From positions 936,501-1,000,500 of the forward strand of contig PUQB01000015.1 in NCBI GenBank assembly GCA_003024785.1: a DNA stretch of 64,000 nucleotides, given 5' to 3'. This DNA comes from Selaginella tamariscina. Taxonomy: Eukaryota > Streptophyta > Lycopodiopsida > Selaginellales > Selaginellaceae. Below, piece by piece: positions 5,161 through 61,168 of this stretch; the first letter of the stretch is position 1, and the number at the start of each line of letters is the position of its first letter. Position numbers and translations under genes: made by a program. Below the pieces are notes generated by a model. The model did no database searches. It saw nothing but the letters and a program-made list of their open reading frames with translations, and was not told where the DNA came from.

Positions 5161-6978
5161 ATGGAAGCCAAGGGGATTCTCGATAGCATTGCATCTGACG
5201 AGGCGGCACTCGAGTTTGTAGAGAGCGTAACAAGAGATGTGTCATCTGTACAGAATGAAGCGCTTAAACGGATACTGCAGGCAAACAGTGGTATAGACTA
5301 CTTCAAAAAGCATGGTATCTATGGTGTACCGTCCAAGGAGGAGTTCAAGACGCTACCGCTCGCGTCGTACTGCGATATAGAGCCATATGTACAGAGAATC
5401 GCCAATGGGGACGAGAGTGGCACCATACTGGGTAATAGGGTGAATGAGATGCTTACCAGGTATTACATTCTTAACCACTGACTTTCTTTCGTTGACTGAC
5501 TGACTGACTAGCTGCCGTTGACTGCAGTTCCGGTACATCCGGTGGGGAACAGAAGCTCTTTCCCAAGCCACAGGGCTACGATGCTGAATTCGTCGTGCTT
5601 AACCGGGTTGCTAGAGCTGCTCTGAACAAGTGAGTTTATTAATGAATATAAGATAATTAATATAAGCTAACTTACTGTTGGTGGCAGACAAGCACCATGC
5701 GCTAGCAAAGGCAAGACCCTGCAATTCATATACGTCAGGAAGCCGGGGATAACGTCCGGCGGAGTCATAACGTGCTCCGGATTGAGCGGGTACTTCACCA
5801 GCCCCGCGTTCCGGAACCGGAAGAGAGATGGATACACCAGTCCAGATGAAGTCATTGTGTGCGTGGATTACCACCAGACAAGTTACTGTCACCTCTTGTG
5901 TGGTCTCGCACAGTCCTGCGAGGTGTCGTCTATCGGGGCGGTCTTCGCCTCCACGTTCGTCCGAGGGATGAAGGAGCTCCGTAAGTACTGGAGGGAGATA
6001 TCGGACGATATAGAGAGGGGCTCAGTGAACACCAACATCGTCTCGGACCTCTCAGTAAAGGATGCAGTGAACAACATACTGAGGCCGAACCCGGAACTGG
6101 CTAACGCCATCCGGCGGCAGTGTTCGAAACAGTCTTGGCGGGGAATCATCCGGCGGTTGTTTCCGAACGTGAGGCTCGCGAATTCTATCGTTACAGGCTC
6201 CATGAAGCAATATGTTCCTATTATCGACTTCTTTACTGACAGCCTGCCGATAGCCTCTTCTCTGTACGCGTCTTCGGAATGCAGCACGCTCGGGGTCAAC
6301 CTCTCACCCATCTGTGACCCCTATAAGGTTCTCTACACTGTCTTCCCTTGCTTCGCTTTCTACGAGTTTCTGGCGCCGGACGGGACGCTGGTGGAGCTGG
6401 CGGACGTGAAGCTCGGACACGAGTACGAGCTGGTGGTGACCACCAAGGGCGGGCTGTACCGGTACTGTGTCGGAGACGTGCTCAGGGTCGTGAGCTTCCA
6501 CAACAGTGCCCCGCAGTTTGCATTCATGAGACGGGCGGGCGTTCTACTGAGCGTGGACACTGACAAGACTGACGAATTCGAGCTTCATACTGCAGTTACG
6601 AATGCAGCATCCCCGCTGCCGAACTTCCGACTGCTGGATTACACCAGCAGGATTGATCTGTCTTCTCAGCCTGGTCACTATGTTGTCTACTGGGAGCTCT
6701 CCACCGCAGACGGGAACCCGGTGGAGCCGGAGTGGATTTGTGCAGAGCCTGAGAACGTACGGTACTGCAGTAACGTATTGGAGCGCTTCCTCTCCACGGT
6801 GTACGGCCGGAACCGGAGGGAAGGCAGCATCGGACCCTTGGAGATCAAGGTAGTAGGGAGTGGGACTTTTGACAGGATAGTTAACCACGTGGCGTTGGGT
6901 CTCGGCGAAAAGGAGGCTCCGGCTCAGGAGGCTTCATATTATTCTAGTATATTCGCGGATATTCTAGGGTTATTCTAG
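5161..6978 (+). CDS. GH3: GH3 acyl acid-amido synthetase, 3' end interrupted by transposon E1
   Basis: GH3 enzymes are cytosolic adenylate-forming ligases that conjugate jasmonate, auxin or related acids to amino acids. Start chosen at MEAKGILDS (5161). Exons 5161-5459, 5528-5629 and 5688 onward join in frame. The first junction creates the ATP-binding motif SSGTSGGEQK. Later family blocks are visible: FIYVRKPG, GAVFASTFVRG, RLFPNVRLANSIVTGSMKQY, SLYASSECSTLGVN, LGHEYELVVTTKGGLYRY, GDVLRVVSFHN, APQFAFMRR, GHYVVYWEL and SIGPLEIKVVGSGTFD. Family homology stops at about 6900. The last residues to 6978 (ending ADILGLF) are read from the left end of E1. The native C-terminus (QYKTPRLV) lies at 15246 onward, so about 40 C-terminal residues are displaced by 8.3 kb. 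The product is likely truncated and probably inactive, unless the element is removed from the transcript. The exact substrate cannot be read from sequence. Confidence 0.93.
6892..6900 (+). repeat. Target-site duplication of E1, left copy
   Basis: GCGTTGGGT here and GCGTTGCGT at 15213-15221 match at 8 of 9 positions. Both copies fill exactly three GH3 codons. With one copy and the element left out, the GH3 frame runs on as HVAL-(G/R)-SVGKGSIGQYKTPR. A 9-bp duplication is typical of Mutator-like elements. Confidence 0.75.
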
Positions 6979-7020
6979 CATATTCTAGCATATTCTCAAG
7001 AATATTCTAGAATATATAAG
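6901..7020 (+). repeat. E1 left terminal inverted repeat
   Basis: Starts CTCGGCGAAAAGG. The segment GGAGGCTCCGG-CTCAGGAGGCTT pairs with the reversed right end (GGAGGCTTGGG, then GCCCAGGAGGCCT). It continues with many TATTCTAG/AATATTC units. E2 begins with the same CGGCGAAA. Confidence 0.7.
6993..7012. promoter_or_regulatory. Heat-shock-element-like GAA/TTC array, E1 left end
   Basis: TTC, then GAATATTCTAGAA: alternating GAA and TTC modules with 2-bp spacing after the first, the arrangement bound by heat-shock factors. It may equally be a transposase binding palindrome. Confidence 0.5.
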
Positions 7021-7032
7021 TTTTTTTAATAT

Positions 7033-7078
7033 GCCGACTGGTTTAATATACGCCGACTGGCTTAATATATGCCACTGG
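7033..7078 (+). promoter_or_regulatory. GCCGACTGG motif cluster inside the E1 left end
   Basis: GCCGACTGG at 7033-7041 and 7052-7060 and GCCACTGG at 7071-7078, with spacing of about 19 bp. The same GCCGACTG word is repeated in the central array (10875-11734) and near the right end (15099-15126), suggesting a protein binding site shared by ends and centre. Confidence 0.6.
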
Positions 7079-7111
7079 CTTAATAAGACATTATCCTAAA
7101 CCCTAAACCAT

Positions 7112-10100
7112 TTATCCTTGTAGCACCGGTGGGTCATGAACTCTGTTGCAATTCACCAGCAAACGGTGGACCTCCATGTCACTGAGCGATCGCCTTTGTA
7201 GAAAATATGTGACTTCCGGGTTCAAGCCAAGCACACGGCTATAGACGAAGTACATGTGTACACATGGGCTCCAACTTTTGCTCTTCTGAAATGTAGAACA
7301 ACTGCATGAAGGATAAGTATTAATAGTCACCTTTGCAGAGTCATTTCCTGCCGACACAACGAAAGCCTCCTTCCGTCCTCTAGCTGTCACTTCAACATTT
7401 CGCACACAACCTAAAAACGTCTTGGCCTTGCGGAAATTCTTCTCTTGTTCCTTAGACATTTTTGTTGGAGTCCGAACCATACGTCCTTCGAAAGGTGGAA
7501 TTGTTGTAGATCCAGCTCCACGTGGTGGCGATGGTGTTTTGTCCTTCTGACCCTCATCTACTCTTCCTGCCATCCCCTGTAAACCTTCCAGAACAAAGCC
7601 TGCATCCTGTAGTTCTCTGACCTCCTCACTTGTCAGCTTCGTTTCCTTGAGCACAGGCCAAACCGTTGGTGGTGTTGGAATACGTGACCGAAGAATTTTG
7701 CCGTTTGGCCGCGTGAAACACCCTGAATCTTTTGGGCAGAACCACATCATCTGTTGTACATACTCCTCATTCCCCAAGGCATCAATGTACATTCGTTTTC
7801 CATAGAATCCTGGTGCTGGCACTCTGCTTGGATAACCGATTGGTTTTCCACACAGAGCAGTTCCTTCCTGATTCATCCCCAAACACTTAACCTTACTGGA
7901 TGCTCCGATTCGTCTGATGGCCCACTCTGTTTGAGCAATCTCTCTCTCCGAAACCTCTTCGAACCTTAACCTCTTTCTCCTGTTGTTTTGGACCACCCGC
8001 TCTGTGTACTCTACATCATGTCTGTGTGAACGTCGAGCATCAGACTGTTCTGTTCCTGTGACTGTTCTCCTAACAGTTTGCACTCGAACGTTAGTGGTAC
8101 ACGTGAACTCCGGGCTGGTCAAGTGTTCCTCGCCTTCCACCAGATTAATAATTGTTGATGGAGATACACTTTTCCCCTCAGAGAGTTTGCGTTGCACTCG
8201 TTTCAACAGAGTTTCCTTCGAAGGCCCTGACCCTGTATACCTCCCTTCTATTGCCGCTTTCACCTTCGCACTCTGCATAACTGCATCGGTGAGGTCTAAC
8301 ATTGTCGCCTCCAGCAGTGGTACTCTTTTGGCCAATCTTGCTCTTCTTGCTCTAGCGTGAATCACTTCAGCATTGTTTGTAGTTGGAACGCTCGCGAGTC
8401 CTTCTTCTGTCATGTCTCCCAGTTCCGCCATGGAGATGTGGTCCTCATGCCTGATCCACCAAGACAGCCATGTCTTCAAAGCTCGAATGTTTGACGCTCG
8501 TCCTTCCCAAAAGACTCGAGAATTGCCAGTTGTTCTTTCTTAGATTGTTCATTCAGTGCTGCAGGCCAGGCACGAGCAAGCTTCATGTGTTCTTCGCGAT
8601 GTTCTTCTGCGATCCATTTCTTTGTCACCTGACGCACGGATTGCATAAAGTGAAACAGACAGCTTCTTTCCCTCCCTTTCATCTTTGCTCCGTTGTTGAA
8701 TACTTGGCGCAAGGCTATCCATATCGCTCCAGCCTCATCCGACATGAAACCAGCAAAGTTGACATTCTCCAAACCCTGCTTCTTACAAACCTCTAGCATT
8801 GTGTTCAAGAACTTCAGCACTGCAACATTATCTTCGCGGCACATATCTGCGTAAGCTATAGTCACCATGGATCTGACACTGCAAGAGAGCGTTAGATAAC
8901 GAAGATTAGAAAGTGTTATGAAGAGTTTTACAACTTACAATGGGTCATAAAGGTGTATTCCAATTGTCGCCCAGTCTGGTATGCGGTGCGTGTGGTCCAG
9001 AACAACCCATTGATCATGAAGGTCTCCTCCACTTTGACACCTTCTGATGTACTCAACTCCTGAACCCGGTCCCTCAACTGTCATTTTGAAGATCAGAGGC
9101 TGCTCCTCAGCACCATGCAGTTCCATCCCTGGAACATGTATGACGTGAATGAAAGGTATTGGCAGCTTTGTCTTCAGCTCCAGAAGACCCTCGTAACCCT
9201 CTCTAAAGTGTGTCTCCTTCTGTCTTGATTGTGTAATCCAGTCCCGAGTCCTAAAGAAAAGGTCACGTCAGTGTGTAGAGATCTAAAAAAAATACCTTCG
9301 ATGGTTTGTTAGAGGTTCAAGTTTTGAGAGTAAACCAGTGTACGAGACTTCTCCTTCTTCCTTGAAAAGTTCTTCAAAGATGAGCTCACGCGCGGCTTGA
9401 AACTCAATCACTCGTTGATTGGTTCGCGGACTGCTCTTTACCACGTTGCTGACACTAGATCTGGCTCGCTGAACGTTTGAAGCTGACACTGAGGGGCTGA
9501 CTGGATGCTGATGAACACCTCTGTGAATGAACAACCTTGTAAAAGAAATGTCGTCTGGCAGAATGTAGTACACATAAGCCGGACAAGTGTGCACCAGCAA
9601 TGGCTCCTCTCCACAATGCTTACATTTTATGCCTATTACTTTGCCTGTCTCAGTTGTCTTTGCCTTCTCCACAGCACCCTTGAAGTGACATTCATTTGCT
9701 TTCTTCTCAAAAGCCAAGTAGGGGCAAGTAGGATTGATGCATTGGAGATGTCCGACACATGAACTTCGACTGACTCGCGCCGGAACATGCCAGTGTGTTG
9801 TGCTCGGGTGTGTCCAATGGTAGCAGCCATCCTTGCGATTCATCCCCGAGTACTTCTCTGTGCTTTCTGTCTTAGGGGGAAGTTCGAAAATGACATTTCC
9901 ATTGTATATCTGCGGTAGTTCAGAGACTCGTTTAACTTCAGACGAACCAATGAGATCCTTCCCTATCCTACATTTGTCTGCTCTTAGAAGACACACCAGC
10001 ATGGATTCCTCACGCTCCTCTGTCCGCAACCTGAACAACGGGCCCTTTGCCGGGCACAATGTGTAAAAGACAAACTGGTTTGATGCATTGCCTTCTGGTA

Positions 10101-10332
10101 ACAACTCCACATCTTCTCCAGAACTCGCAGAAACTGACATCAATTGAACCACATGTATACTGAACCAACAAGGAATGTTGAAAGCAATGTGAAGATCATG
10201 TTCAAACACAAAAGCATTTCCATCTTCATCGACTGGGAAATCTTTGTCAATGCCTTCTAGGTAACTCTGGCCATGACAACGCAAGGAGAAAGCTCGGTGG
10301 TTTAGGAAAGCAAAGCAAAAGATTAAACACAC
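7112..10332 (-). CDS. E1 Mutator-like transposase (zinc cluster, DDE, SWIM)
   Basis: Three exons: about 10332-9296, 9250-8939 and 8878-7112. Junctions are GT..AG and in frame, and E2 has introns at the same places. Exon 1 carries a WRKY-GCM1-like zinc cluster (SSCVGHLQCINPTCP, CKHCGEE, HRGVHQHP), the DNA-binding module of many MULE transposases. Exon 2 holds the first catalytic Asp (VVLDHTHR, about 9000). Exon 3 holds the second (FAGFMSDEAGAIW, about 8740), the C..H pair (SCLFHF, about 8660), the third acid (TTNNAEVIH, about 8370), a Cys-rich patch (KCLG, CGK, WFCPKDSGC; 7890-7730) and a SWIM finger (CSCSTFQ, CVHMYFVY; about 7310-7230). Intact length would be about 1030 residues. One frameshift is evident near 8510-8530, where the E2-like reading (VFWEG, then TWLSWW) moves to another frame, so this copy is probably inactive. 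The initiation codon is uncertain. Confidence 0.85.
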
Positions 10333-10874
10333 TTTCTTACCAAAAAAAAATTACAATCGTTAACAATAAACGTGAATACACGTTTGTATATAATTAATTC
10401 TATGCTGCCCAGTTCACAGTGTTCTTAATGATGTCCTCTCTAGTATCACCGATTTAATTTAATTTCTACCTTTTATGATTTGAAATATCTTCACATTTAC
10501 CAATTATTCACATATTTTAAAATAAACCCTAAATATTAATGTCACATTTATTCCGTAGGGTTCACTGTTTTCATTGCGGCTAGGGTTTTTTGGTAGATAG
10601 GGTTTACTGTTTCCATTGCGGCTAGGGTTCTTTCAATCTCAGATCTGTTTCCACTGCGGTAGATCCAGAGGGTTTCTTTAATCTCAGATCTCAGAGTTAC
10701 GGTTTCCACTGCGGCGCCATCCATTTCGACTCGATTCGTGCAGCGCCCAAGTATAACAATGGAGATTTCTGTGCCGATTTAGATTCTCGGCACCATCCTG
10801 CTCAGCCGGCGGCCACAAGGTATGTGTAATTTCTGTATTTTATGATTTGCTGCTCAAAGTATTTCTTTTTCCAG
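10333..10874 (+). promoter_or_regulatory. E1 central promoter region and first leader exon
   Basis: Divergent promoter region between the two E1 genes. It holds repeated words (TTTCCATTGCGGCTAGGGTT twice around 10570-10630; TCTCAGATCT twice around 10636-10690) and telobox-like AGGGTTT boxes. The first leader exon of the plus-strand gene appears to end at 10819 (CCACAAG|GTATGT), and a 55-nt intron follows to 10874. Confidence 0.55.
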
Positions 10875-11734
10875 AGATATAGGGTCTTCTTATTTGTGCC
10901 GACTGAGAGCAACGGCACCATCCTGGTTCAGTCGGCAAACACAAGGTATCGTCGATTTATTTATTTTTTTCCTTGCGGCTCAAGTATACGTGTCACAATG
11001 TTTTTTTTTCAGAGTTAATGGGTCTTTCCATTTGTGCCGACTGAGAGTGACGGCACCATCCTGGTTCAGTCGGCAAAAACAAGGTATTTTCGATTTGTTT
11101 TTTTTTGCTTTCTGGCTCAAGTATTCGTATCACAAGGTTTTTTTCAGAGTTAATGGGTCTTCCCATTTGTGCCGACTGAGAGTGACGGCACCATCCACGT
11201 TCAGTCAGTCGGCAGCCACAAGGTATGTTCGATATATTTATTTTTTGCTTTCTGGATCATGTATTCGTATCACATTGTTTTTTTTCAGAGTTAATGTGTC
11301 TTCTCATTTGTGCCGACTGAGAGTGACGGCACCATCCTTCTTCAGTCGGCAGCCACAAGGTATTTTGAATTTGTTTATATTTTGCTTGCGGCTCAAGTAT
11401 CCGTATAACAATGTTTTTTTTCAGAGTTATAGTGTCTTCCCATTTGTGCCGACTGAGAGTGACGGCACCATCCTTCTTCAGTCGGCAGCCACAAGGTATT
11501 TTGAATTAGTTTTTTTTTTCTTTGCGTCTCAAGTATTTCTTTTAAAACAGTTAATGGGTCTTCCCATTTGTGCCGTCTGAGAGGGACGGCACCATCCTAT
11601 CTCAGTCGGCACCATTATCTCTTCTGCCGTCTGACAGAGTCGGCACAAACTATCTCAGTCGGCAGGTTTTTTCTTCTACATCTCTCTGCCGACTGAGAGG
11701 GTCGGCAGCATCTAGCTTGAGTCGGCAGCCACAA
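10875..11734 (+). repeat. Tandem array of mini-exon/mini-intron cassettes in the E1 methyltransferase leader
   Basis: Five units of about 135 bp plus a sixth, degenerate one. Each unit begins after (T)nCAG|AG and ends ACAAG|GTAT, so predicted exons are 10875-10945 (71 nt), 11013-11083 (71), 11148-11222 (75), 11289-11359 (71), 11425-11495 (71) and 11551 to about 11734, separated by introns of 55-67 nt. Each exon contains TGCCGACTGAGAG, a conserved GGCACCATCC, and TCAGTCGGCA, so it can fold as a hairpin with GCCGACTGA arms. Four units (from 11013, 11148, 11289, 11551) also contain an 8-codon upstream ORF of the form MGL(P/S)ICAD-stop. A last intron (about 11735-11802) precedes the start codon region. 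Splicing is predicted, not shown. Confidence 0.75.
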
Positions 11735-11810
11735 GGTTAGTCATCTTTGTTTGTTTTTTTATTTTGACTCCTCATCAATTGACTTGTGTGTTTACTTTCC
11801 AGAGTTCAAA

Positions 11811-14800
11811 ATGGTGAGAGCTTCAAAACGTCTACTAGAGACTGCGCCTGATGAAGAGCCACGGGAAGAGAAGAGGATATCGAAGCAGAAGCGAGGCAAG
11901 AGAGGAGAACCATCTAATGTACAAAGGAGGATCCTCCAGTGACTCAGTCTGGAGTAGTAGCAGTTGAGCAAGAACAGCCTCCACCAACAATCACAGATTT
12001 CCCGGAGAGCTCGTCGCAGTTGCCTCCTTCATCCGCTGAGGTTGCAGTCCTGAACGAGCAAGTGCAGATGACAGAGGCAGCTGAAGCTAGCGAGGACGAC
12101 TTGGAGGAGGCAGTCAGCAAAAAGAGAGGCCGCGGGAAAGCTGATTCAAAAGGCAAGAAGGCGAAGAGCGATAAGGAGCCGAAGGAGTTATACAGCATAC
12201 CGGCGAGCCTGCATTTGGAGAGCTCAGCAAACCTGCTCGACAAAATTACTATCAAGGGACTTGGTGATCCTCCTGATGTGCCCATCTGCAGAATACATTC
12301 CAACGAGGTGGTTCGACGAGTGAACCCAGGGGACTTGGACAGGCTGGTGTCATCGTTGAAGAAGGCTGGTTATCTACGCAACACGGCCTTGTTCATTCTG
12401 TCCATCGGAGATCGACTCACTGCTGAGGAGCTATCGGAGCTGTCGAAGGACACGATTCAGTACGAGCAGCACCGGTCTTTCGAGCAAGCTCTTACTCAGC
12501 CGGAGTACAAACAGTGGGCTTCAAGGCTCTCAAACAGGAAGTTTAGCTGCTGGGACGGGAACCATAGGCTACAGGCTTTGCAGAAGCTGTACCGAGAGGA
12601 TGCAGAGGACAACCAGCGATGGGCTATTCGCGTTCGATCGAGTTTCATCTCCACGGAGAACCTCGACATTCTTCAACTGGTTTCGATGTTCCAATCGATT
12701 AACATGTGAGTATTTTCTTTTCTTTTTGTTAAGAGTTTAGACTTACAGTTTCGTTGAACAGATCTTCAGCAACATCTGTGGAAACAACGCTACCACATAT
12801 TCTCCTCGCTGTAAAGGCGGTCTGCACTAGTACAGAAGGAACTCAGAAAATCCTCGAGTCACTCACGGAGGTTGATCGTCTTGAGGTGCGGAAGTGGAAG
12901 GAGAGTTCATCAGGAAAGACGGCTTGGCATCCTCTTCCGAACCTGATCTGCGCAAAGATACTTTTCAAGGTAACCTCCGATTTAATTTATAGGAAAGAAA
13001 TTTTTAACTTGTTCTATGTGCAGAACGAGATCGACGATGATCTCGACAGAGCAGTCACCAGTGCTAAGGGCAATCCACAGGTTGAGGTGAACCTGAAGCA
13101 GCTAGTATACAAGAAGCATGACAAGCGTATGCACAAGTTCCTCTCCATCATAGACCCAGACTTGGGGGAGGAGTGGTTCCAGAAGGTGACAAACATCTCT
13201 CATAAGCAGTGTCGCTGGATGGGCATTGAGAAGCTGTATGCGATGTCAAGGGCGAAGATTCCAAACATGCTGCGACTCCGATACCTCAACAAGCTCACCC
13301 GTCTCGAATCCAAGGCAGAACAACAGACACTTGGGCTACCGGGCATGCAGGACAAAGAGTGGATCAAGTGGTTCACCTTGGACTTATATTGGAAGGCTGT
13401 GCGCGAGGAAGCCATTCAGATCCTTAAGGGGTTGCGAGAGGATGGTGAAGAAGTTGGAACGGATGTCGACTTCATGAGCTGGTTTGACGAGATGAGAATT
13501 CGGAGCAAGTGCCTGGTCTTTCAGCCCTTCCATGACTGCATACGGTTCACTTATTCGATGGAGCCGAATGAGTTTCTGGAGCGTGAGGAATCTGCGCGTC
13601 GGATGATATGGAGGTAAGCTTTCAATCCAGCATTGCTACTGTCTGACTTTGTGTTGCAGGTTCATACTGGCGAAGCAAATGACACCGTCCCATACGATGA
13701 AGCTGTGGACAGATCATACAAGCGAGCCTCACATGTGGTCGAAGAGCAGAGGAGCTCTAACACCGTTCGAACGGGAGCATGTTCCATTCTGGCTCGACTG
13801 TCCGTCGCAACAGCCACCAGCTTGGGAGAGCACACTATTCGACATGCACGCCAATGATCTAGCCAGAAGAAGTAGAGGCTATCAAGAAGAGCAAGATGAA
13901 GAAGACGGTGCGGAAGACAACTACACCTGCAAAGGGATCGGGAGCGGGACCAAGCTCTTCTACAGCACCTCCGCCGCATTCGACTTTACAATCAATGAGG
14001 TACAGCCACTTGTAGCTAGTTTGGACATCAAGGACGACCTGATGACCTTCATCCCGACCCTGGCTGCATCCCGTGGATCCTACGACCTAGCTGTGTGCGA
14101 CATGGAGGAGATGAGCAGGTCTTTCTTCGAGCCAGGTGCTTCCCAGACAGAGGTGTACACCAAGCTCCGAGAACAGGTTGACAGACTACATACGGTTGAG
14201 TCACAAACGTTGTTCCAGGAAGTGGTAGGTGAATACGGCTTCAACCTCATCATCCTCGACTTGCCCAATGAGCTTGTATATGGAGGTGCTAGCATCAACA
14301 AGGACATTGTGCAGCTAGATCCGGTGAAGTTTGAGGAGGCCTTGCAGTTCAGTGGAATGCACTTGGCAGCGAGTGGTTTCATGGTCGTCTTCGCGAGTTC
14401 TCCTTCTGTTTCGGCGGTGATTCAGGCGGCTGCAGTAATCAACTTGGAGGTTGCAGGGACTTACAGCGTCTACCGTGCACGAGGCTGGGGATACCGTGAC
14501 AAAATTAAGGTAAGCTAGCTATTCAAGTTCAAGTTTAACTTGGTCTATGTGGCAGGATAACTTGTTAGTTCTCTTGGTGCTGCAAAGCTCTGAGAAGAAG
14601 TCGAAGAGGCCAAACCCTCTGGCGTTGACGAACACGATCCTCGTCGACACTGCCGACCGTTATCAGGAGGCTTGGTAAGGAAGTGCTTTGCTATGTTTAT
14701 CCTAATGGAAGATTTGCAGGATTATGATTCAACCGAAGAGTGTTCGACTCATGCAGCTTTTGATCGAGCGTCTCAGTAGACCTGGCGACCTAGTCTGGGA

Positions 14801-15017
14801 TATTGGTTCCGGAACCGGGTCATCATTGTTAGCTGCCGTCGAGCTCGGAAGGAATATTATAGGAACCGAGAAGAGTTTCGAACTCTCTAGGTTGGCAACA
14901 AACAAGCTTGCAGAGAACATTAGACCAGAAGAGTTACCTACTCAAACACCTCCACGTCCAAGCGTAACTGGTGGTTCGAGAACTGCAGCTTTACTTAAGA
15001 TGAAGAAGAAACTTTAG
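11811..15017 (+). CDS. E1 ParB-like / beta-class DNA methyltransferase protein
   Basis: Exons: 11803-12705, 12762-12969, 13024-13613, 13660-14509, 14556-14674 and 14720-15017; every later junction keeps frame. Order: basic, acidic, Lys-rich N-terminus (SKKRGRGKADSKGKKAK, likely NLS); ParB/Srx-like domain (about 12270-12690) with PICRIHSNEVV and WDGNHRLQAL; a long region without known motif (12762 to about 14000); then methyltransferase motifs. Motif IV region is IILDLPNELVYGG (about 14250) and motif I is VWDIGSGTGSS (about 14795) followed by LGRNIIGTEKSFELSRLATNKL. DPPY-like before GxGxG is the beta-class order, used for N6-adenine or N4-cytosine methylation. The catalytic DPPY is DLPN here, so activity is doubtful. 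The frame of the first ATG (11811) stops at 11940 and the main frame starts upstream of 11939: either a frameshift, or real initiation at a later ATG (about 12068). Length from there is about 900 residues. Confidence 0.82.
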
Positions 15018-15098
15018 CTAATGTATATTGAGTAATAAATTAAGCTAATATAAAAAAAATTAAAAAGAAATACAACAGTTTTAATAGAATTCTTTTTT

Positions 15099-15126
15099 GC
15101 CGACTGAGGCCAATACTGCCGACCAG
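15099..15126 (+). promoter_or_regulatory. GCCGACTGA motifs inside the E1 right end
   Basis: GCCGACTGA at 15099-15107 and GCCGACCAG at 15118-15126, the same word as in the left end and in the central array. They lie just inside the AATATTC array. Confidence 0.55.
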
Positions 15127-15129
15127 AAA

Positions 15130-15167
15130 GAATATTCCAAAATATTCTAGAATATTCTTGAATATTC
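15130..15167. promoter_or_regulatory. Heat-shock-element-like GAA/TTC array, E1 right end
   Basis: GAATATTC, a short gap, then TTC-TA-GAA-TA-TTC-TT-GAA-TA-TTC: five alternating modules at perfect 2-bp spacing. It sits in the right terminal inverted repeat. Confidence 0.55.
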
Positions 15168-15212
15168 GAGCCCAGGCCTCCTGGGCCCCAAGCCTCCAAA
15201 ATGGCGACACTC
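15130..15212 (-). repeat. E1 right terminal inverted repeat
   Basis: Reversed, it reads GTCGCCATTTTGGAGGCT, then GGGGCCCAGGAGGCCT, then AATATTC units, matching the left end. The precise last base (15212) is inferred from the 9-bp target duplication that follows. Confidence 0.65.
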
Positions 15213-15338
15213 GCGTTGCGTTCAGTGGGCAAAGGGAGTATCGGGCAGTATAAGACACCGAGGTTGGTAACTGATCCTGCCATTTTGAGGATTCTCGAGT
15301 CTAGTGTTGTCATGTCTGTTCGAGTGAAGAGCTCTTAA
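15213..15338 (+). pseudogene. GH3: Displaced 3' end of the GH3 gene
   Basis: Starts with the right copy of the target duplication and reads in GH3 frame: ALRSVGKGSIGQYKTPRLV, then ILRILESSVV, ending KSS and TAA at 15336-15338. QYKTPR is the conserved C-terminal GH3 motif. This is the original end of the gene at 5161-6900, cut off by E1. AATAAA-like sequence near 15375 could be the old poly(A) signal. Confidence 0.9.
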
Positions 15339-31811: not shown

Positions 31812-32392
31812 TGTCAAGCCACGATCCAGGAACCAGGAAAAGAGCAGGATTCCAAGAACAAGGAGGCTTGACTCAGGAACAGGACAAAGAGCAGGACAGG
31901 AACTAGAAACTCAGGAGCAAGACTGGAACCGGATAGGATCCGGGAGAGACAGGAACAGGATAGGATCCGGGAGCTAGACAGGAAGGCGCATGACAGGATC
32001 CAGGAACAAGACAGGAACAGGATAGGATCCAGAAGCAGAATAGGATCCGAGAGCAAGACAGAGCAGGAGGCAAGGAGCAAGACACGAACAAGATAAGAAC
32101 AAGAATGATCGTAGAATGATTGGTGTTGATAGTAACTGATTGTACAACAATTAGGTCAGAGCTTTTATGCTTACAACTCCAAGCTAATCTAGTCATGAGC
32201 TAAGAATAGTGTCCCTTATCCTCTAGGCATATCCTATAGCATATCCTATAGGAATATCCTACAGGTATATCCTGTAGGAATATCCTGCATGCATATTCTG
32301 TAACCCATATCCTGTATCCGAAATCCTGCATCCTGTATCCTGTATCCGGAATCCTGTATCCTGCATCCTGTATCCTGTATCGGGTTGTGACA
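31812..32392 (-). repeat. Element A LTR (3' LTR by coding direction)
   Basis: 581 bp, TGTCAAGCCACG...GTTGTGACA. Contains a minisatellite of the AGGAACAGGATAGGATCC kind (31840-32070) and a second one of CCTGTATCC/ATATCCT units (32225-32385). Confidence 0.92.
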
Positions 32393-51597: not shown

Positions 51598-52077
51598 GGT
51601 AAGTAACAGTTATAACAAAATTTTGTTAAATTAATAGAAATATTCTATGTTATACCAATGCTCCCTTATATTATATTTAGTTTATACAAATGTGTTTAAA
51701 TAATGTACAGTTAGTACGTGCTCGATTATGCGTGCTGCATGGAGACGTACGCGCGTGTGAATAAGAACGAACGACGAACATACCTGAGACTGAACGGTAA
51801 TTTACTCGAATTCGGTATTGTACGGCGGTTGTTCCCGAGCATGAAGCTCATACATTCCCTAGTTAGAAATTTCACGAAGCAGTATGTTTCCTATTATCAG
51901 CTTCCTTACTGACAGTTTAGTAATCTTTAGAGTGCAGTCAAACCTCTCCCCCATCCGTGTTTTTTATCACTCAGAAAGTCGATAATAGAAACATACTGCT
52001 TCAAGAAACCTGTAACAACAGAAAACCGTCGGCGTTTCTGCCTTTCACCACTGGAAGCGTAAAAACAATAATTACCA
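51598..52077 (+). repeat. 0.48-kb GH3-derived direct repeat, left of E2
   Basis: Starts GGTAAGTAACA and ends ACAATAATTACCA; the copy at 61169-61638 is about 98% identical by eye (one 9-bp indel and a handful of substitutions). It contains a decayed GH3 stretch (VRRLFPSMKLIHSLV, then KQYV). It stops exactly where the E2 terminus CGGCGAAA starts. Confidence 0.9.
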
Positions 52078-52119
52078 CGGCGAAATTCGAGTGCAGGTCA
52101 ACGAGCTTGACCAAGATTT

Positions 52120-52137
52120 GAATATTCTTGAATATTC
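52120..52137. promoter_or_regulatory. Heat-shock-element-like array 1, E2 left end
   Basis: GAATATTCTTGAATATTC: four GAA/TTC modules with perfect 2-bp spacing. Confidence 0.55.
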
Positions 52138-52234
52138 CATTGTTCCGTACGATTTCCGTCTAGATATCCTCGAATATTCTGTACGGAAATTTTTCGTACT
52201 GCCAAGTGTACACACAATTGGACCTTCCAAAATT

Positions 52235-52257
52235 TTCAAGAATATTCTAGAATATTC
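52235..52257. promoter_or_regulatory. Heat-shock-element-like array 2, E2 left end
   Basis: Five perfectly spaced modules: TTC-AA-GAA-TA-TTC-TA-GAA-TA-TTC, immediately before the GTGCGGCGGCCGCA palindrome. Confidence 0.55.
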
Positions 52258-52259
52258 TA

Positions 52260-52273
52260 GTGCGGCGGCCGCA
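52260..52273. promoter_or_regulatory. GTGCGGCGGCCGCA palindrome at the E2 left end
   Basis: Same palindrome as the four copies in the central array (56490-56719). A partial CGCCGCACC lies near the right end (61056-61064), again next to an AATATTC unit. Confidence 0.65.
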
Positions 52274-52430
52274 TACAAAATATGAGTATATTTTTGTTGT
52301 ATTTAAAGAAATATATTAAATTACTTAAAAATATGCTAAGCATAAAATTACCATTAAAATTTATATTGAAAATTATAAGTTTGAAATAACAAATATAAAA
52401 CCGAAGCTGTTTGAAAACAAACCAAACACA

Positions 52431-55400
52431 CTAAATAGATGGTGGAGGATGGAGGTTCCTTGGTAGCATCAATAAAGAACTTAGTTCACGGGGTGCAAGT
52501 GTACGACGTTGCAAATGCTTGACAACTCGAGGATCAGCTCCCAGTACACGCTTGTAAACAAAATACATATGTTTGCAAGGCACCCACTGACGACCATTGC
52601 AGAACTCCGAGCATGAACAAGATGGTGCGCTGCAAATGACAACCCAAGCAGATGTATGGTCGTTGTCACATACTCTGAAGCGAATGCATGTTGGAGGATC
52701 AACCACGTCAACTTCTGCGACATATGCTCCCAACGTCAAACATGCTTCAAAACTTACCTGTTGTTTCTTAGACATCCCTAAAGGTGTTCTTGTTGCACGA
52801 CCACTTGCAGGAACAGGAGGTCCACGAAATTGTGCAGGGGGTGTTGAAAATCCAGTGACTCCAACAGGAACTGAAGGAACATGAGGTGTTGAAAAACCTG
52901 GCACTCCTGCATGAGCTGAAGGAAGCCCAGCTAGCATAAAACCTGATCTTGCCAGATCATTGATCTCCACTGCTATCCCACTTGAACTTTCCAAACCGAG
53001 GTAGAAGCTGGCGGAGAAACAATAGTTGGTCTTGGATGTCTGCTGCAAAGCATGTTTGTTGGACAAAAATACATCATTTGTGAGCGAAAGCATTCTTCAC
53101 CAGTTTCTTTGTCATTGTATCTGATCCTTCCAAAAAAACAAGGAGCAGCCACTCGATTACCACTAGGACTGATCTTTTTGTCACAAGCACTCCACTGACC
53201 TCCTGAAGAGGGAAAGCCTGCCAGACATTTCACAGAACTTCTTTCACCACATCTTCTAATCGCCCATTGTCCAGGTGTAACATCTTGTTCTTCAACCAGA
53301 ACATATTCTTCATGTTCTTCTGCAAGTTGAAAATCCAATCGTCGCTTCCGTCTACACTGTGTTGGAATAACCTGTTCACTATAGAAGATGTCCGGTCGGT
53401 GGATCGTTCAGCCTCTGACCCCATATTTCTTTGCACAGTGCGATGTTCAACATTCGTGGCAGCCACAAAAGCAGTATCCTGCATGCTTGATGGAGCAACA
53501 TCTTCAACTAAGTCGATGATAACCTTTGCTGTAGGTGTTGTTGAGTTAGCATTTGACATTCTTCTCTCGAACCTTGCTGAGAGCTCCTCTGAAGTCGGCC
53601 CGGAACCACTATACCTTCCATCTCTAAAAGCCTTCACAAGAGCACATTGTCGCACTGATTCAGTCAGGTCGTGGATTGTAGCTTGGTACAATGAAATGTA
53701 TTTTGAATCTCTAGCCCTCCTCCATCTTCCGTGAACAGACTCCGACTGGTTTGTCATGGGCACAACCCTTGCAGCATTCTCCGGCATGCTTTCAAGAACA
53801 ACATTTGAAATATGATTCTTCTGTCTTTCCCACCATGAAAACCACGTCTGCATAACTCCAACATCCTTCACATTTTCATTCCAAAAGCGGAAAAGATTAT
53901 TTTCAATTTCTTCACGATCAGTTGTTGATGTGGCTGTTGGCCATGATCTCAAAAGTTGAAGATGTTGTTGTTGATGTTCAAGAGGGACCCACTTCCTTGT
54001 CACACGTTGTATGGCTTGTTCATAGTGAAAGATACAGCTCCGTTCACGTCCAGGAATTTCTTGGCCATTAAAGAACACATTCCTAATTGCTTGCCAGATC
54101 GCTCCTGCTTCATCGGACATAAACCCAGCGAACTGCACATTGTAGATTCCCTTCTCGGAACAGACATCCAACATAGCACGAAAAAACTTCTCCACAGCTC
54201 CAGCCGTTTGTCTCTTCATGTCACCATAAGCAATGGTGGATAATCGGCGCACACTATAAAATAATCAAAGAGTTAAGCAAACAACAAAAAGATAACATCT
54301 TACTTTGGGTCGTAAACATGCAATGCCAGAGTGATCCACTTATCAACAACACGGTGTGTGTGATCAAGTAGAACCCAACTCTTCTGCAAAGGGCCAAGAG
54401 GAGGTTGGCACATCCTTACATAATCGATTCCAGAACCTGGCCCTGAAACCGTCATCTTAAAAACTAATGCCTGGTCGTCTGAACCACGGAAATTCATCCC
54501 AGGATAGTGAATCACGTGGATGAATGGGATAGACAACCTTCGTTTCAGCTCCAATAATCCATCAATATTCTCTGGCATTTCAGCAGCAGTTCTCTTTGCG
54601 GACGCTACCCATTGACGAACTCTGCATCAAAGGTATTATCAAAGAATGCTCAGCACAAAGTAAAACTCTAATTGTACCTTCGATTGTTTGATAATGGTGC
54701 AAATGATCCATGAGCTTATCCCAACTTCCAGGCTCAGAATTATCTAATAGGAAACCAAAGATAGCATCTTTACATGCTGCCATTTCGATGACTCTTGGAC
54801 TAGCTCTGGGAGTTCTTTCTGTTGCATTCTGGACCGCCATATGCATTTCTTCTTTGTTCGATGCAGAAACACCATCACCCACTGGATGTGAATGTTTTCC
54901 CTGGTGGATAAACAATCTAGTCTTGGTTATGTCGTCTGGGAAAACGCAAAACGCCACAGCATGACAAACTTCAAGGCACAATGGATTTTCTTTACAGAAA
55001 AAACATGTCAATCCTTTTGCCAGTTTGTCGATTGAAGGTGGGGAAACAATACATCCTTTCCATTTAGTGCAGTTCGGAAATCCTGCCTTAGAAGCAGGGC
55101 AGTCCGGGTTGATACAGCAAAGGCTCCCAACACATTTGCTCCTGGACACCCTCGCTTGAAAATTCCAGTTGCTGGTCGTTCCTGCTGTCCAGGTATGTCC
55201 ATCCTCTTTCCGATTCATTCCTTTGTATTTGTATTCGGAAGGAGGGAGCTCAAAAATGACATCCCCATCATACGCAATAGGCAATTCATTTGTATGAATG
55301 ATCGTGGAACCCTCGATAAGAATTCTTCCCTTTTTGCAGGTATTAGAAGTGAAAAGGTCTTCAACGTTGAGTATTCAGAGTCAGAAGCAACGACAAGCTT

Positions 55401-55700
55401 AAACAATGGTCCTTCATCCGGTAACAAAACATATCCTGGATTATCCTTCCCTCCAGCATCTTGGTCCTCGTTTTTTCGATCTCTAAAGCAGATTGCCCAT
55501 GAAGAAGTTTAAAAAGACGAACACTTTGCCAATCAAAAATGCCAAAGAACGTTCTTCTGATTAGTAAGAATGATTCCAACACCATCTATCACAGGAACAT
55601 CGTGATCCAAATTGCCGTAAACAATCCTGGCCATTTTGCAAGCAGTTACCACAAACGTGACAGAAAAACAACAGCATTACTTAATCATCTTTTGGTAAAT
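52431..55700 (-). pseudogene. E2 Mutator-like transposase
   Basis: Same three-exon plan as E1: exon 1 to about 54679, exon 2 about 54627-54301, exon 3 about 54256-52431. Visible: zinc cluster (SKCVGSLCCINPDCP, CFFCKEN, HQGKHSHP), first Asp (VLLDHTHR, about 54365), second Asp (FAGFMSDEAGAIW, about 54120), C..H (SCIFHYEQA), third acid (MTNQSESVHG, about 53745), Cys-rich patch (KCLAGFP, YFCPTNMLC) and SWIM finger (SCSCSEFCNG, PCKHMYFVYK, about 52600). The 340-codon central block is open, but the N-terminal part (about 55330-55450) and the C-terminal part (about 53000-53340) change frame, so the copy is probably inactive. Sequence differs greatly from E1 outside the motifs. Confidence 0.8.
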
Positions 55701-56461
55701 ATCGGATATTACCATTTCAAAAATTCACAATCATGACTCAACGTGGGCGAATATTTAATTCAAGGAAACGTATAGATCTTAGATGCTAATATAGTATAGC
55801 ACTTCACGTAGAGATAGAGCAATCTTTATTGTCTTTTAAATAAATGTGTGTCTAATCTACATTCATCTGACATATTTATTTATGACTTGTTTATATTCTG
55901 TTAATTTATTTATTATAATTATATAGTTATTTGATCCAGTATTTTATCTAATGTAGACATTATAAATACATATTTTTACACGAATATTTATTTAATTATA
56001 TAATAATATGTTTTTTTAACATACAAATTTTTACTTAAATATGTGTTTGTATTTGTATCCTTTTATATAGTACGTTATTTATCGCAAGTATTGTATATAC
56101 TGTTGTATGGTTTGATTAAACACAATTTTATAGTTAAGGGTCAAAGGGTTAAGTGTTAGATTTTAGGGTAAAGGTTTAGGGCGCCCATTCTTCTCCATTC
56201 TCCATTGAGAGGGCACTTTTGTTCTTTTTTTTGCGGCGCTCTTGTTCTCCATTTGCGGAAGAGGCTAGTGTGAGCGTCACGGCGACATGGCTACAGGTAA
56301 AATCTTATATATGTGTATAGTAATTTCTGTGCATGTATGTGCAATTCAGTAGGATTTCTCTCTATTCACAAACGCACGCGCGTGCACACACACACACACC
56401 CGACGCATGAGTTATTGCCGATTTTGGCAAACACACTCACACACACACACATTCCTGCCAA

Positions 56462-56755
56462 ATTGGGCAGAAATTTCTGCCGCCTGGATGGTGCGCGGCC
56501 GCACCATCTGGGCGGCAGGATTTTCCTGCCGAATTCGACAGGAAATCCTGCCGTCGGAATGGTGCGGCGGCCGCACCATCTGGACGGCAGGATTTCCTGC
56601 TGAATTGGCAGGAATTCCTGCTGCATGGATGGTGTGGCGGCCGCACCATCTGGACAGCAGGATTTTCCTGCCGAATTGGGCAGGAAATCCTGCCATCGGA
56701 ATGGTGCGGCGGCCGCACCATCCTGGCGGCAGGATTTCCTACCCAATTTGGCGTG
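56462..56755. repeat. E2 central array of nested palindromes
   Basis: Four copies of GGTGCGGCGGCCGCACC or close variants (56490-56505, 56561-56577, 56631-56647, 56703-56719) alternate with a second palindrome of the GGCAGGATTTCCTGCC type. CA/GT runs lie on both sides. The shared block GCACCATCCTGG also occurs in every E1 leader unit. Long ORFs on both strands here are by-products of the symmetry. Confidence 0.8.
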
Positions 56756-56897
56756 TGTGTGTGTGTTTGTTTGTTTGTTTGCACACACACATAAATAACA
56801 TTTTACACATGTACCACATTATGATTATACAACATTAGACTTGTATACATGTGTGTGTATATATAAATCATATATTTAAATACATACTTAAAAAGAC

Positions 56898-56929
<32 letters not shown>

Positions 56930-57265
56930 ATATGTATATATGAATCTAATACTTGTATATATGAGATGATGCTTTTTCGTCTGTATATACATGTGAAGAG
57001 ATATGAATATACCCATATTCTCTCACATAGATACATCACAAAAACAAACAACATTGCACACACACACACACATAAGCAACATTACACACATACACAAGGA
57101 ACATTATATAGTGAGCACACACACAAACAACATTACACATGTATAAATATGTGTGTGTGTGCTTATGTGTCTATATATATTGATAGGTATACATATAACA
57201 GTAAATGTGTGTCCATAAATTAAAACAACTCACACACACACTCTTATCAATTGTTGTAATTGCAA

Positions 57266-60200
57266 ATGAGGCAAAGGCAGAGTAAGAGACTGCGAGATAA
57301 ATACAAGACTTTGACACTTCAGGAACATATCGTCCAAGAAGCCTCTTGCAGATATGGCTCAAAACCTCGTGGCAAGAAAGGAGGCTCAGGTTCAAGCAAC
57401 AATTGCAGCGCGAAGAGAAATGCCGACGAACAATGAACCTGTGATAAGTTCGCAAAGTCATTGATGAACATGCTGTGGTGAGTGAATGGATGCCTAGAAA
57501 TAGGGAGATTGCAGGAAGCTCTGCAGAACACGGTAATGCAGAGGAAGTACCGGACATTGATCTTGGTAGTAAAATGTTCAATAAGAAGAGGAAACTGGAT
57601 GCTCCTGAGGATGTTGCCGAATCATATGCAATTCCGGAGCGGCTGACACTTGAGGCTCCATCCAAGCTTCTTCGGGATCTTGTTATTCGGTATGACACGG
57701 ATATTGACACATCGCTACAAGGACGAGACCACTACGTTCCAGTTGAGCTTGGTGAGCCTCCGCATATCCCGGTTCACAGGTTGCTCCCACACCAACGTTT
57801 GAGGAATGTCACTAAGGACGGCGTGAAAGACCTTGTTGGATGGATTAGAGCTGAAGGATTTTACCAGGAGACGTCAGTGTTCACCTTATCTTTCGGACCA
57901 CAGCTGAGTGCAGACGAACGCCGAAGTTGGAATGAGTCAGAAGCACAGGTCGATAAGAGTTTGAAGCGGATTTGCATAAGCCAGCATTTTTGCGTGGTAT
58001 CGATTTCTGAAAGATGCAAAGTTTCTGGTGTGGGATGGGAATCATCGTCGGGTTGCTTTGAACACTTTGCTTGCTGAAGAGCCAGGTTTGAAATGGACTT
58101 TGCGTGTACGTGCAACACTCATAGCATCCACAGTGCAAGAGGAGAAGAGACTAATCGCTGCTTGCAATCGGTTGAATGAGTAAGTGACTTGTTTGTTTCA
58201 TTATTTAAATACTAAATAAATGTTGTTTTGTTTTGCAGAGCAACTGCTCGTGTGGTTCCTACAACAATCATTCACACCTTGCAGTTCTTACGGAATTGTT
58301 GTGTGAAGTCTGCAGATCTTTCTACCGATCATGTTCTTCGCGGGATGCCGGAGGAAGATAGAAAAGCTGTGGAAGTGTGGAGATCGAACAGAAAAGAAGA
58401 CGTTTGGTACGAGTATCCAAAGACGACATTGGTGAAGATTTTTTGGGAGGTAATCTTTTCTTCTTCTTTTGACTGTTTTTTGATTTTCGGTTTCTTTTGC
58501 AGAATCAACTGAAGCGACAAATCGCTACAAAACTTGCGAACAGAAAACCAAACCAGACAGAATCTCAGATCCTCTCCAGCGTTTACAAGACATTCACAGT
58601 TCGGATGAACAAATTCCTCACCATTGCTGATCCGGCGGTCGGCGAAGATTGGTTCAAGGCGATCACAGATATCACTATCAAACCATCAACGAAGCAAATA
58701 ACTCTGGAGAAGCTTCAAATGCTGCGAAGTCCCAGCTTCCTTCCAACGTCAAGGTTGATATCCTTGGAAGCTTGTGCACATTCAAGAACGTGGCGTTCTT
58801 GAAAGCTGGTGAACATGACGGAGAAAGACAAGAAGGAAGGTGTCACCGGCTGGCCTGACAAGGACTTCATCAAGTTTTTGCACATCTTTACTTACTGGTT
58901 CCAGGTAATTTAATATTTATATTTTTCATTTTTATTCGTTTTATCGTGCCAGGTCGCGGAGGCAGCTAAAGAGCTTTTGGTCGAGCATGTAGAGGAGTTA
59001 TGGCATGGTATACGAAGATGCACAATGAAATTAAGTTGGATATGTACCAGAACATGCTCGAGAACAAGGAGTTCGGTGCGACAATTCCACCTCTCGACTA
59101 TTTGAGCTGGAAAAATCTGCAAAAAGAATGGCATTCAGGCAAGTTTTTTTTTTTGTTTCTTTACAGATTTTTATCTATTTTTACAGGTTTTTAAAATGGA
59201 AAACGATGCACTCCCTGAAGATTTCAAAGAGTGGATGGATGTTACCAAGGATTCTAGCATGTGGAGCCGGTTGTTACGTGATATCAGTGATTACGAAGTG
59301 GAACACTGTCCTTTCTGGCTGGATTTCCTTCCTGGTGACTGTCCCGAATGGGAGATGGCCAGCTATAAGATACACAAGGATGATCGGCGAGAGCTATTAT
59401 GGAAGAACGACAGTGCTGCAAGGAAGCTCCATGTGAAGATGGATATCAGGTATGCTAGATCGGCGAGCAAGGTCAGCAAGGGACAGCTTCTTCTTCCCCA
59501 TCCTTCATCTCGGCTGGATTGGAAGAAGATGATATGTTGAGGATGGTGATGCCTGAGAAGGGAAATGGAAGCTGGGAAATCATTCATGCAGATTCAGAGA
59601 ACCTTGCAGTCCAGTACTTCAAAGCCGGAAGGCCTTTTCCGTCAGGATTGAAGGAGCTTGAGGATTGGATCGTGAGTCACAAGTCAAGTTGGACTATTCA
59701 TGTGTTTGGTGCGAAGCCTCCACCAAAATGCATCCAGGAGCTGTTGATCTCGTTGTCATCGACCCGCCTACCGGATGCGTTGCTGAGGCAGGCGGGATGG
59801 TGGATCAATACACGAAGTTCTCGGATGCTTTGCTGAAGAACTTGGTGAACCTTGCTTTCGGGATATTAGACAGAGCTGGCCATGTGGTAGTGTTTGTGCT
59901 ACCGATGATGTTCAGCTTTGAAGAACACTGCAGAAACTTGCAAGCTAAAGTTTCTGCAGATGAGTTATGTGCACACGACAAGTCATGGGGATACCGTTTC
60001 TCTAGAAAGGTAATTCTTCTTTTTGAGAATGTCATTTTTTAATGTTTTTTTTTCAGGAAAGCATCATTGCCATGTGTATTTTTGGTTCCCCCTACTCTAA
60101 GGTTGCCAAGAACAAGGAGATCTTGGACACTCGCTACACTCTTCTTTTTGATGAGCCAGAAGATTTCCAGCTCCCATGGTATAATGTTGTTTGTTATTTC

Positions 60201-60446
60201 TCATGTTCTAATATTGTAACTTTCAGGATTTCAATTGGCCCGAAATCTCCCAAGTTGTTTGCGATGCTAGTGGAGAAGCTCACAAAGCCTGGTGGAACTG
60301 TCGTGGATCTAACAGTGGGAACCGGTGCTAGTATTCTTGCAGCTTTTCACACAGGGAGACATGGTTATGGAATCGACATCAACAAGGATCTGGTTTTAGC
60401 AGCCAGAGATGTCTTCAGGAAGGTCATTCCAAGTGTTACAAGCTGA
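57266..60446 (+). pseudogene. E2 ParB-like / beta-class DNA methyltransferase protein
   Basis: Same architecture and intron positions as the E1 gene. The first exon (start 57266, SKRLRDKYK, basic) is followed after a change to the -1 frame by the main frame from about 57475. ParB-like part: HIPVHRLLPHQRLRN, then VWDGNHRRVAL (about 58025). Middle region: MNKFLTIADPAVGEDWF matches MHKFLSIIDPDLGEEWF of E1. Methyltransferase: VVIDPPTGCVAEAGG (59755-59790), which retains DPP of the catalytic motif, and VDLTVGTGASILAA (about 60300) as SAM-binding motif I, followed by GRHGYGIDIN. Several frame changes (about 57970-58020, 58740, 58870-59100, 59500-59700) make this copy likely non-functional. Exact exon ends are uncertain. 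Confidence 0.75.
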
Positions 60447-60880
60447 AGGTGGTGGGGATGATCAAGTGTTTCCATGATTACTCCTTTTGATGAGTGGAAG
60501 AGGGCCATGGAAACAGAAGCACAGGATTTGCCTTTGGCTAGCGACAACGATGGAGACCAGGATCCGCCTTCTCGAAACAAAGGATGTTGTTACGGAGAAG
60601 TCCGTGGAGCACAACGACGAGTCATCAGATGAGTCAGCAGAAGAGAGATCATACGAGTCATCAGATGATGAGTGAGATTTGTTTTATCATTTTTTGGTTT
60701 TAAACTTTAATATGTTTTCAGTATTGTTTACCAGACTACGCTAATCAGATGGCAAAGAAAATGGTTGAAGAGTTCGAAGTTTACGACAGACAGATTTTGG
60801 AGAAACGTTCACGACACCGTAACAATGCATTCATTAACGACGAGGCACTGGCTGGTGGAAACGAGTCTTCATGATTGAGT
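60447..60880 (+). other. Acidic C-terminal extension or tail ORFs of E2
   Basis: Open stretches downstream of methyltransferase motif I encode an acidic, Ser-rich run (HNDESSDESAEERSYESSDD, about 60610-60675) and, after a possible intron (GTGAG-like at about 60672, TTTTCAG at 60721), KKMVEEFEVYDRQILEKRSR ending GGNESS and stop near 60874. E1 has no such tail. This could be extra exons of the methyltransferase gene. Confidence 0.4.
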
Positions 60881-61168
60881 TATGTTTTTATTGTAATTTT
60901 TATTTAGTTTGATGCGGTATTTATATAAAAATATAATTATAGTTATAAATATAAATATTAAAAAAATAAAAACATAAATATAAATATATATGTCAGATTA
61001 ACCCCCAAATTTGTGAAACTTTGACACCATTACCGTGCCGCCATGATTGCCCGCCCGCCGCACCAAAATATTCTTTATACGAAAACAATATTCTATACGG
61101 AATGGAATATTCTGATATAATGGAAATCCGTGCGCTCGGCAAACTGCACTCGAGGAAATGTCAAACCC

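Follow-up and report, generated by a model that had tools for sequence, protein, structure and literature searches.

Transposons with genes for anti-silencing or base modification

Transposons with anti-silencing or base-modifying genes are known, and TET/JBP, DNMT, Dam-like, SET and Fanzor genes borne by transposable elements, together with VANC, have already been described. The subject here is two families of Mutator-like elements (MULEs) of the lycophyte Selaginella tamariscina, represented by the copies E1 and E2 in a stretch of 64,000 nucleotides (contig PUQB01000015.1 of assembly GCA_003024785.1, positions 936,501 to 1,000,500, forward strand; C449:936501-1000500 in the genome searched; hereafter the window), in both of which a transposase gene lies divergent to a second gene whose product has a predicted ParB/DndB-like domain followed by a methyltransferase-like one. 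In the open literature searched, no MULE with a ParB-methyltransferase-like gene was found; an earlier record may exist in subscription papers or Repbase reports.

Like the VANDAL MULEs with VANC, as these appear in the accessible part of the report on them (PMC5735166), the elements combine a MULE with an extra gene, and have tandem motif arrays of variable copy number in non-coding element DNA; VANC21, according to the same part of that source, targets arrays of varying copy number in its own element. Unlike VANC, which carries DUF1985 and DUF287 there, the second protein is ParB/DndB-like and methyltransferase-like, and Pfam gave no DUF1985 or DUF287 match in the second proteins of either family. 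The order of its domains is that of bacterial and phage fusions of ParB to an adenine methylase, at least as set out in the available portions of PMC5512222 and PMC12704722: ParB comes first, a permuted N6_N4 methyltransferase follows, and motifs IV and I are collinear. Those fusions have 392-510 residues, uninterrupted frames and, in the alignment, a motif IV of DPPY/SPPY type, whereas the element protein has ~1,000 residues, a long middle region, introns, and DLPN or DPPT at that site.

The same DNA-modification theme recurs with other enzymes or element classes, namely in fungal DNA transposons with TET/JBP (PMC12730594), which likewise encode an enzyme of DNA-modification type, in retrotransposons with DNMT and DIRS elements with a Dam-like methyltransferase (PMC5890265), and in a viral Mariner with a methyltransferase (PMC3627910); the accessible portions of these reports include no MULE with a ParB-methyltransferase gene. 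From bdelloid rotifers there is a eukaryotic PF01555 beta-type amino-methyltransferase, N4CMT, with five conserved introns (PMC8885841, available in part), which differs in being an off-transposon host gene with a chromodomain, and it is active when expressed in E. coli.

Two element families of one design

The genes and the parts of their products that matter for what follows are these (L numbers denote fetched loci, L047 being an intact-looking relative of E2; SAM, S-adenosylmethionine).

6897..15212: E1, Mutator-like element of 8,316 bp; ends common to other genomic copies, GH3 frame restored on its removal
7115..10140, minus strand: E1 transposase gene, exons ~10140-9296, 9250-8939 and 8878-7115; a T4 run at ~8509-8512 breaks the frame; SWIM match at E 0.0086, below cut-off
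11811..15017, plus strand: E1 ParB-methyltransferase-like gene, exons 11811-12705, 12762-12969, 13024-13613, 13660-14509, 14556-14674 and 14720-15017; one-base frame break near 11915
12170..12705, plus strand: ParB/DndB-like region, WDGNHR at 12551-12568 (DndB profile, hhalign)
14258..14269, plus strand: DLPN, equivalent of motif IV (aligned with phage motif IV)
14799..14819, plus strand: DIGSGTG, motif I, SAM binding (Pfam N6_N4_Mtase 1.1e-8; PDB matches)
~52074..61168: E2, which belongs to a second family with the same layout and is decayed
52440..55700, minus strand: E2 transposase gene with frame breaks (in L047 a frame of 614 residues is open, with a MULE match at E 0.025, below cut-off)
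57263..60700, plus strand: E2 ParB-methyltransferase-like gene with frame breaks; motif IV DPPT at 59761-59772, motif I at ~60306-60326 (open frames, Pfam)

A preliminary description, made from the letters of the window, had paired a transposase with a divergent ParB-methyltransferase-like gene in both E1 and E2, and that pairing stands, with the transposase on the minus and the second gene on the plus strand, as do the sequence motifs it listed, all present in the window. E2 has the layout of E1 with several frame breaks. Both window copies are damaged; the second gene is fully open in L013, L014 and L018 of the E1 family and in L047 of the E2 family, where all its exons are open (1,042 residues), and the L047 transposase has its 614-residue open frame with a frame change in the N-terminal part.

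Further copies with both genes between the same ends, which the preliminary description had suggested looking for in lycophyte, fern and bryophyte genomes, were found in this genome (300.7 Mb in 1,391 contigs were searched) and fall in the two families. The ParB-like exon of E1 has at least 146 listed matches, two rows of which are pieces of one place, and the best 84 of them are 99-100% identical without stops. Among the at least 150 listed matches of an 89-residue E2 query, some places being split into two rows, 47 rows share one identical score, have no stops and are 73% identical to E2; this low identity we ascribe to E2 itself being frame-slipped in that piece. Twenty copies of the E1 family were fetched, picked to cover the range of identity classes, and 13 of them, whether in one piece or several, extend to both ends of the query (1 and 8312). 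For the 16 with both ends, the flanks were compared with a one-base shift of the ends permitted, and 9-bp flanks are identical in nine (L012, L013, L015, L018, L019, L022, L025, L027, L028), with one mismatch in L014 and L026, two in L021, three in L009 and six in L010, L020 and L023. With at least 146 genomic matches, and perfect duplications in 9 of 16, the pattern is more than chance. The E1 family is young and numerous. For the E2 family nine further end pairs were fetched in addition to L047, and among the eight that are readable the 9-bp duplication is exact in L077 and L083, exact in L073 if a run of G is shared, near in L047, L067 and L069, and lacking in L079 and L081. Both genes are enclosed by the same element ends and one target duplication.

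Are these in fact Mutator-type elements, as first described? The 9-bp duplications, the ends starting GGG and the weak MULE and SWIM profile matches support it. The profile matches are below their cut-offs: PF10551 (MULE) meets the L047 transposase at E 0.025 (15.4 bits, cut-off 27.6, profile positions 2-96 of 99), with no Pfam MULE match for the transposase pieces of E1 or E2, and SWIM meets the E1 transposase, a gene with two introns, at the E value listed above. The terminal inverted repeats are imperfect, with local alignment scores of 57 (E1) and 55 (E2) against maxima of 43 and 46 in 200 letter shuffles.

At 8509-8512 the transposase T run is T5 in L009, L019, L024, L027 and L028, and the frame-breaking T4 in E1 and most other fetched copies. 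A subfamily mobilised in trans, frameshifting, or a systematic assembly error are the candidates to account for this. Young copies of the E1 family have more indels than substitutions, so some frame breaks may be assembly error.

The second protein

In E1 the second gene has a single frame of ~950 residues, 11918-15017, running across five short GT-AG introns. Most other listed copies extend upstream, to an ATG equivalent to 11811 (open frames of ~309-331 residues, against 263 in E1), and the one-base frame break near the start in E1 recurs among the fetched copies in L022 and L023. L047 has six introns, one with a GC donor, and in the alignment five positions coincide with those of E1, in keeping with the shared intron positions and orientation first reported for the window copies. 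Aligned over 933 positions, the second proteins of the two families agree at 269 (29%); since the same two genes, with five coinciding introns, occur in families as far apart as this, the two-gene partnership predates a deep split. The predicted protein of ~1,000 residues begins with a basic N-terminus, followed by a ParB/DndB-like domain, then a middle region that no profile matches and, last, a domain resembling a permuted amino-methyltransferase.

By profile and motif order, the C-terminal domain is predicted to be a permuted amino-methyltransferase of the beta type. Its motif-I part matches Pfam N6_N4_Mtase above the curated cut-off in E1 (1.1e-8), E2 (1.2e-7) and L047 (3.3e-8). Against the PDB, a profile of E1 and E2 has as top match the MboIIA adenine methylase (7.9e-6), then CcrM (6.7e-4), a putative modification methylase, two unnamed methyltransferases and DpnA, with weaker methyltransferases that do not act on DNA behind them. 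Motif I lies C-terminal to motif IV, and is kept in both families as GSGTG or VGTGAS. When compared by hhalign with eight phage ParB-methylases (from L029-L033, L035 and L036), the stretch that runs from motif IV through motif I aligns over 193 columns, with P 1e-7 and a probability of 94%, or with P 1.5e-7 when intact copies are used.

The ParB/DndB-like assignment is less certain than that of the methyltransferase. The DndB profile PF14072 matches the WDGNHR (C-terminal) half in E2 at 1e-4 and the whole L047 protein at 0.0056, both below cut-off; DndB is a ParB-superfamily protein, to go by the accessible part of PMC10853773. Aligned by hhalign with phage and PDB ParB, the N-terminal box gives P 1.4e-3 when the region is taken whole and 6e-4 without its insert, and none of 200 column shuffles reaches either score (28.1 for the whole region against a shuffle maximum of 26.4), while the score of the C-terminal half alone is equalled by 3 of 200. 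There was no Pfam ParBc (PF02195) match to the region, and a PDB search with it gave two irrelevant weak matches and, with a profile, none. In the profile check proposed in the preliminary description, N6_N4_Mtase matches above cut-off, ParBc gives no match, and MULE matches only below cut-off.

From where might such a gene have come? Its architecture makes it plausible that it descends from a ParB-methylase of bacteria or phages. No homologue of the whole protein, the ParB exon or the methyltransferase part was found in a set of 5.8 billion proteins at E <= 0.01, nor any relative in viral contigs and GTDB genomes scanned with small sets (two to six per scan) of short peptide patterns. Tblastn with the L018 protein gave 43 phage and 1,715 plasmid records, none covering 80% of the query, and in the best 10 of each only the motif-I end matches DNA methylases, over 7-12% of the query (best E 2e-4). 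Capture of a prokaryotic modification gene, the origin first put forward, is unsupported as a recent event, since these searches matched nothing beyond the SAM-binding end; 5-6 introns interrupt the gene.

Selection on the second gene

With L018 as reference and neutral simulations using the observed mutation spectrum, the ratio of nonsynonymous to synonymous change (pN/pS) for the whole second gene is 0.34 in L027 and 0.32 in L028, against neutral means of 0.66 and 0.63, and not one of 500 simulations for either copy is as low. By domain the values for L027 and L028 are 0.23 and 0.27 (ParB), 0.25 and 0.34 (methyltransferase core), 0.31 and 0.26 (middle) and 0.76 and 0.52 (N-terminus), with 0.28-0.59 for parts of the transposase; simulations are as low for the ParB part in 2 of 500 (L027) and 7 of 500 (L028). 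L024 (0.76, 9 stops) lacks the right part of the element and for that reason was not simulated. The second gene is under purifying selection, and that the element has kept it, as the preliminary description held, is borne out by whole-gene ratios below all 500 simulations.

Candidate target sites

Three parts of E1 have repeated motifs.

10864..11740: central array of ~138-bp units with paired GCCGACTG, between the divergent genes
6959..7060: left sub-end, with a GAATATTC palindrome (7000) and two GCCGACTG (7033, 7052)
15099..15167: right sub-end, with GCCGACTG (15099) and GAATATTC (15130, 15150, 15160)

E1 holds all 16 occurrences of GCCGACTG in the window: 13 belong to the central array, two to the left end and one to the right. 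GAATATTC has 10 window sites, near the ends of E1 (4) and E2 (6), and is present also at both ends of L047. Among 18 fetched copies of the E1 family with both anchors, the array has 13 motifs in 13 copies and between 9 and 16 in the remaining five, L027 and L028 not being scorable.

E2 as found in the window has its own central array, made up of GTGCGGC-type inverted repeats. It was considered as a conserved trait of that family and is ruled out as such by its absence from L047. Palindromic GTGCGGCGGCCGCAC and CCTGCCG repeats at 56480-56745 are expanded in E2, unlike in the intact L047.

Units of the E1 array (10864-11560) resemble repeated small exons, with eight ACAAG|GT donors and seven CAG|AG acceptors in E1.

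Three-unit heat-shock-type sites, GAAnnTTCnnGAA, are placed at 7000-7012, 15145-15167, 52120-52137 and 52235-52257, the two ends of E1 and the left end of E2 holding 9 of the 12 in the window; in L047 there are five, all of them at the left end. A heat response, or sites for the transposase, are candidates for what they signify.

What might the second protein do?

We give an even chance to the proposal, the one we favour, that the second protein works for the element by acting on the element's own non-coding DNA. Two related families of autonomous type carry its gene divergent to the transposase; its ParB-like and methyltransferase-like parts would recognise non-coding element DNA, for which the element ends, and in E1 also the central array, are candidate sites; and the DNA so bound might be modified or occupied, with escape from host silencing, or licensing of the ends for transposition, as the possible result. 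Its role would be analogous to that of VANC in VANDAL MULEs, and it is from the arrays of varying copy number targeted by VANC21 that we infer a target-site mechanism. A more specific version, that the element encodes a sequence-directed writer of N6-methyladenine (6mA) or N4-methylcytosine (4mC), perhaps with an altered active site, which marks ends and central array, we consider unlikely. If true, it would amount to self/non-self marking of a restriction-modification-like kind by a eukaryotic transposon, blocking silencing or licensing transposition. Two deeply diverged families of many copies allow a direct test of self-marking by 6mA/4mC, a disputed mark in plants.

Several observations weigh against action on the element's own DNA. 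Motif IV of beta-class amino-methyltransferases follows the rule [DNS]PP[YFW], and the aromatic residue is missing from the motif of both families. Nineteen sequences of the E1 family can be read at the site, E1 itself and 18 fetched copies, L023 and L024 being unreadable there; 18 of the 19 have DLPN and L028 has NLPN. Of 27 distinct places of the E2 family, counting E2, DPPT is found in 23 (24 of 28 rows, L040 and L062 being one place), the other forms being DLPT, DSPT, DLPI and one that is frame-slipped. As motif IV is non-canonical in both families, methyl transfer is unproven, and the conservation of the motif in that form poses a clear biochemical question. The central array is not universal, since L047 is without it, and GCCGACTG holds what we take to be the core of the plant DRE/CRT (dehydration-responsive element/C-repeat) site, to which host factors could bind. 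As to selection, the ratio for the methyltransferase core is only moderately below neutral, with simulations as low in 22 of 496 (L027) and 10 of 500 (L028). L028 has 10 stops where neutral simulation gives ~9.8, and for L027 the figures are 3 and 5.5; selected change and neutral change of later date are therefore mixed in both, and much of the divergence of L028 is later decay. Copies with few changes scatter (0.58 in L009 and in L014, 1.74 in L017, and 0.99 for the ParB part of L026), young copies having too few for one-by-one judgement. The pooled ratio for the E2 family is 0.44 against 0.60 neutral, with 10 of 300 simulations as low, a weak comparison in which ten pieces were pooled and shared changes counted repeatedly.

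Some of these points bear on whether the methyltransferase-like domain is catalytically dead, serving as a DNA- or SAM-binding module in an accessory protein of transposition with no base modified, for which MURB, and METTL14 as a non-catalytic partner, are models. We hold this to be possible, well short of an even chance. The near-uniform DLPN of the E1 family extends to L027, 90% identical in the ParB exon, and a family with that motif is still young and numerous, its methyltransferase core constrained; the retention of motif I in both families, and of D-P-P in the DPPT of the E2 family, speak for a live one.

For the central array there is the separate explanation that it is a stress-responsive host promoter with AP2/ERF and heat-shock sites, having nothing to do with the second gene. 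RCCGAC and the heat-shock-type motif presumably have those meanings, and 16 of the 34 RCCGAC cores of the window are inside the E1 array, to which can be added the concentration of heat-shock-type sites at the ends of E1 and E2 noted above. The presence of GCCGACTG also at both ends of E1, near the 3′ ends of genes, speaks against it, and we see this explanation as rather doubtful.

That the second gene is no ParB-methyltransferase, its likeness being due to chance or to a generic Rossmann fold, is very improbable. It would fit with the ParB region having no Pfam match in E1 and none that is relevant in the PDB, and with ribosomal-protein and cap methyltransferases also matching the motif-I end there, more weakly; it would leave to coincidence an N6_N4_Mtase match above the curated cut-off in two families, motif IV before motif I in an alignment of 193 columns, and a ParB box and DndB match at the expected N-terminal place. 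Least credible, and already contradicted, is passive cargo, either a chance host gene fragment (Pack-MULE), as MULEs often carry host gene pieces, or two unrelated elements that happen to adjoin, given the same genes, orientation and five coinciding introns in families 29% identical, whole-gene pN/pS under every neutral simulation for L027 and L028, and a single pair of ends and target duplication around both genes.

Insertion sites and neighbouring DNA

E1 splits the last exon of a GH3 gene, and its immediate surroundings are as follows.

5671..6896, plus strand: 5′ part of the host GH3 exon that E1 interrupts (matches to GH3 proteins of the PDB, best E 1.8e-67)
6888..6896: left flank of E1, CGTGGCGTT, imperfect 9-bp target duplication (8 of its 9 bases agree with 15214-15222 once the ends are moved by one base)
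15214..15222: right flank of E1, CGTTGCGTT (flank comparison)

With the insert taken out, the reading frame is restored and the GH3 C-terminus aligns across the junction with GH3 structures in the PDB (best E as above). The flanks CGTGGCGTT and CGTTGCGTT match at 8 of 9 positions only when the ends are shifted by one base. Fetched copies of the E1 family have GGGTCTCGGCG as left end and CACTC as right end. The right end of E1 was placed exactly, at 15212, in the preliminary description; the left end it gave, 6901, has to be moved to 6897, where the GGGTCTCGGCG common to other copies begins. A target duplication of GCGTTGGGT and GCGTTGCGT, which goes with a start at 6901, is ruled out, as the GGGT belongs to the element in other copies.

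Around E2, ~465 bp of host DNA are directly duplicated, at 51613-52077 and 61175-61638, with 459 of 465 positions identical. On either side this duplication lies a few bases from the element, and it far exceeds a 9-bp target duplication. By eye, there is a GH3-like fragment inside it. Between the two elements, 31930-50000 is an array of large diverged repeats with ~4-8 kb between copies.

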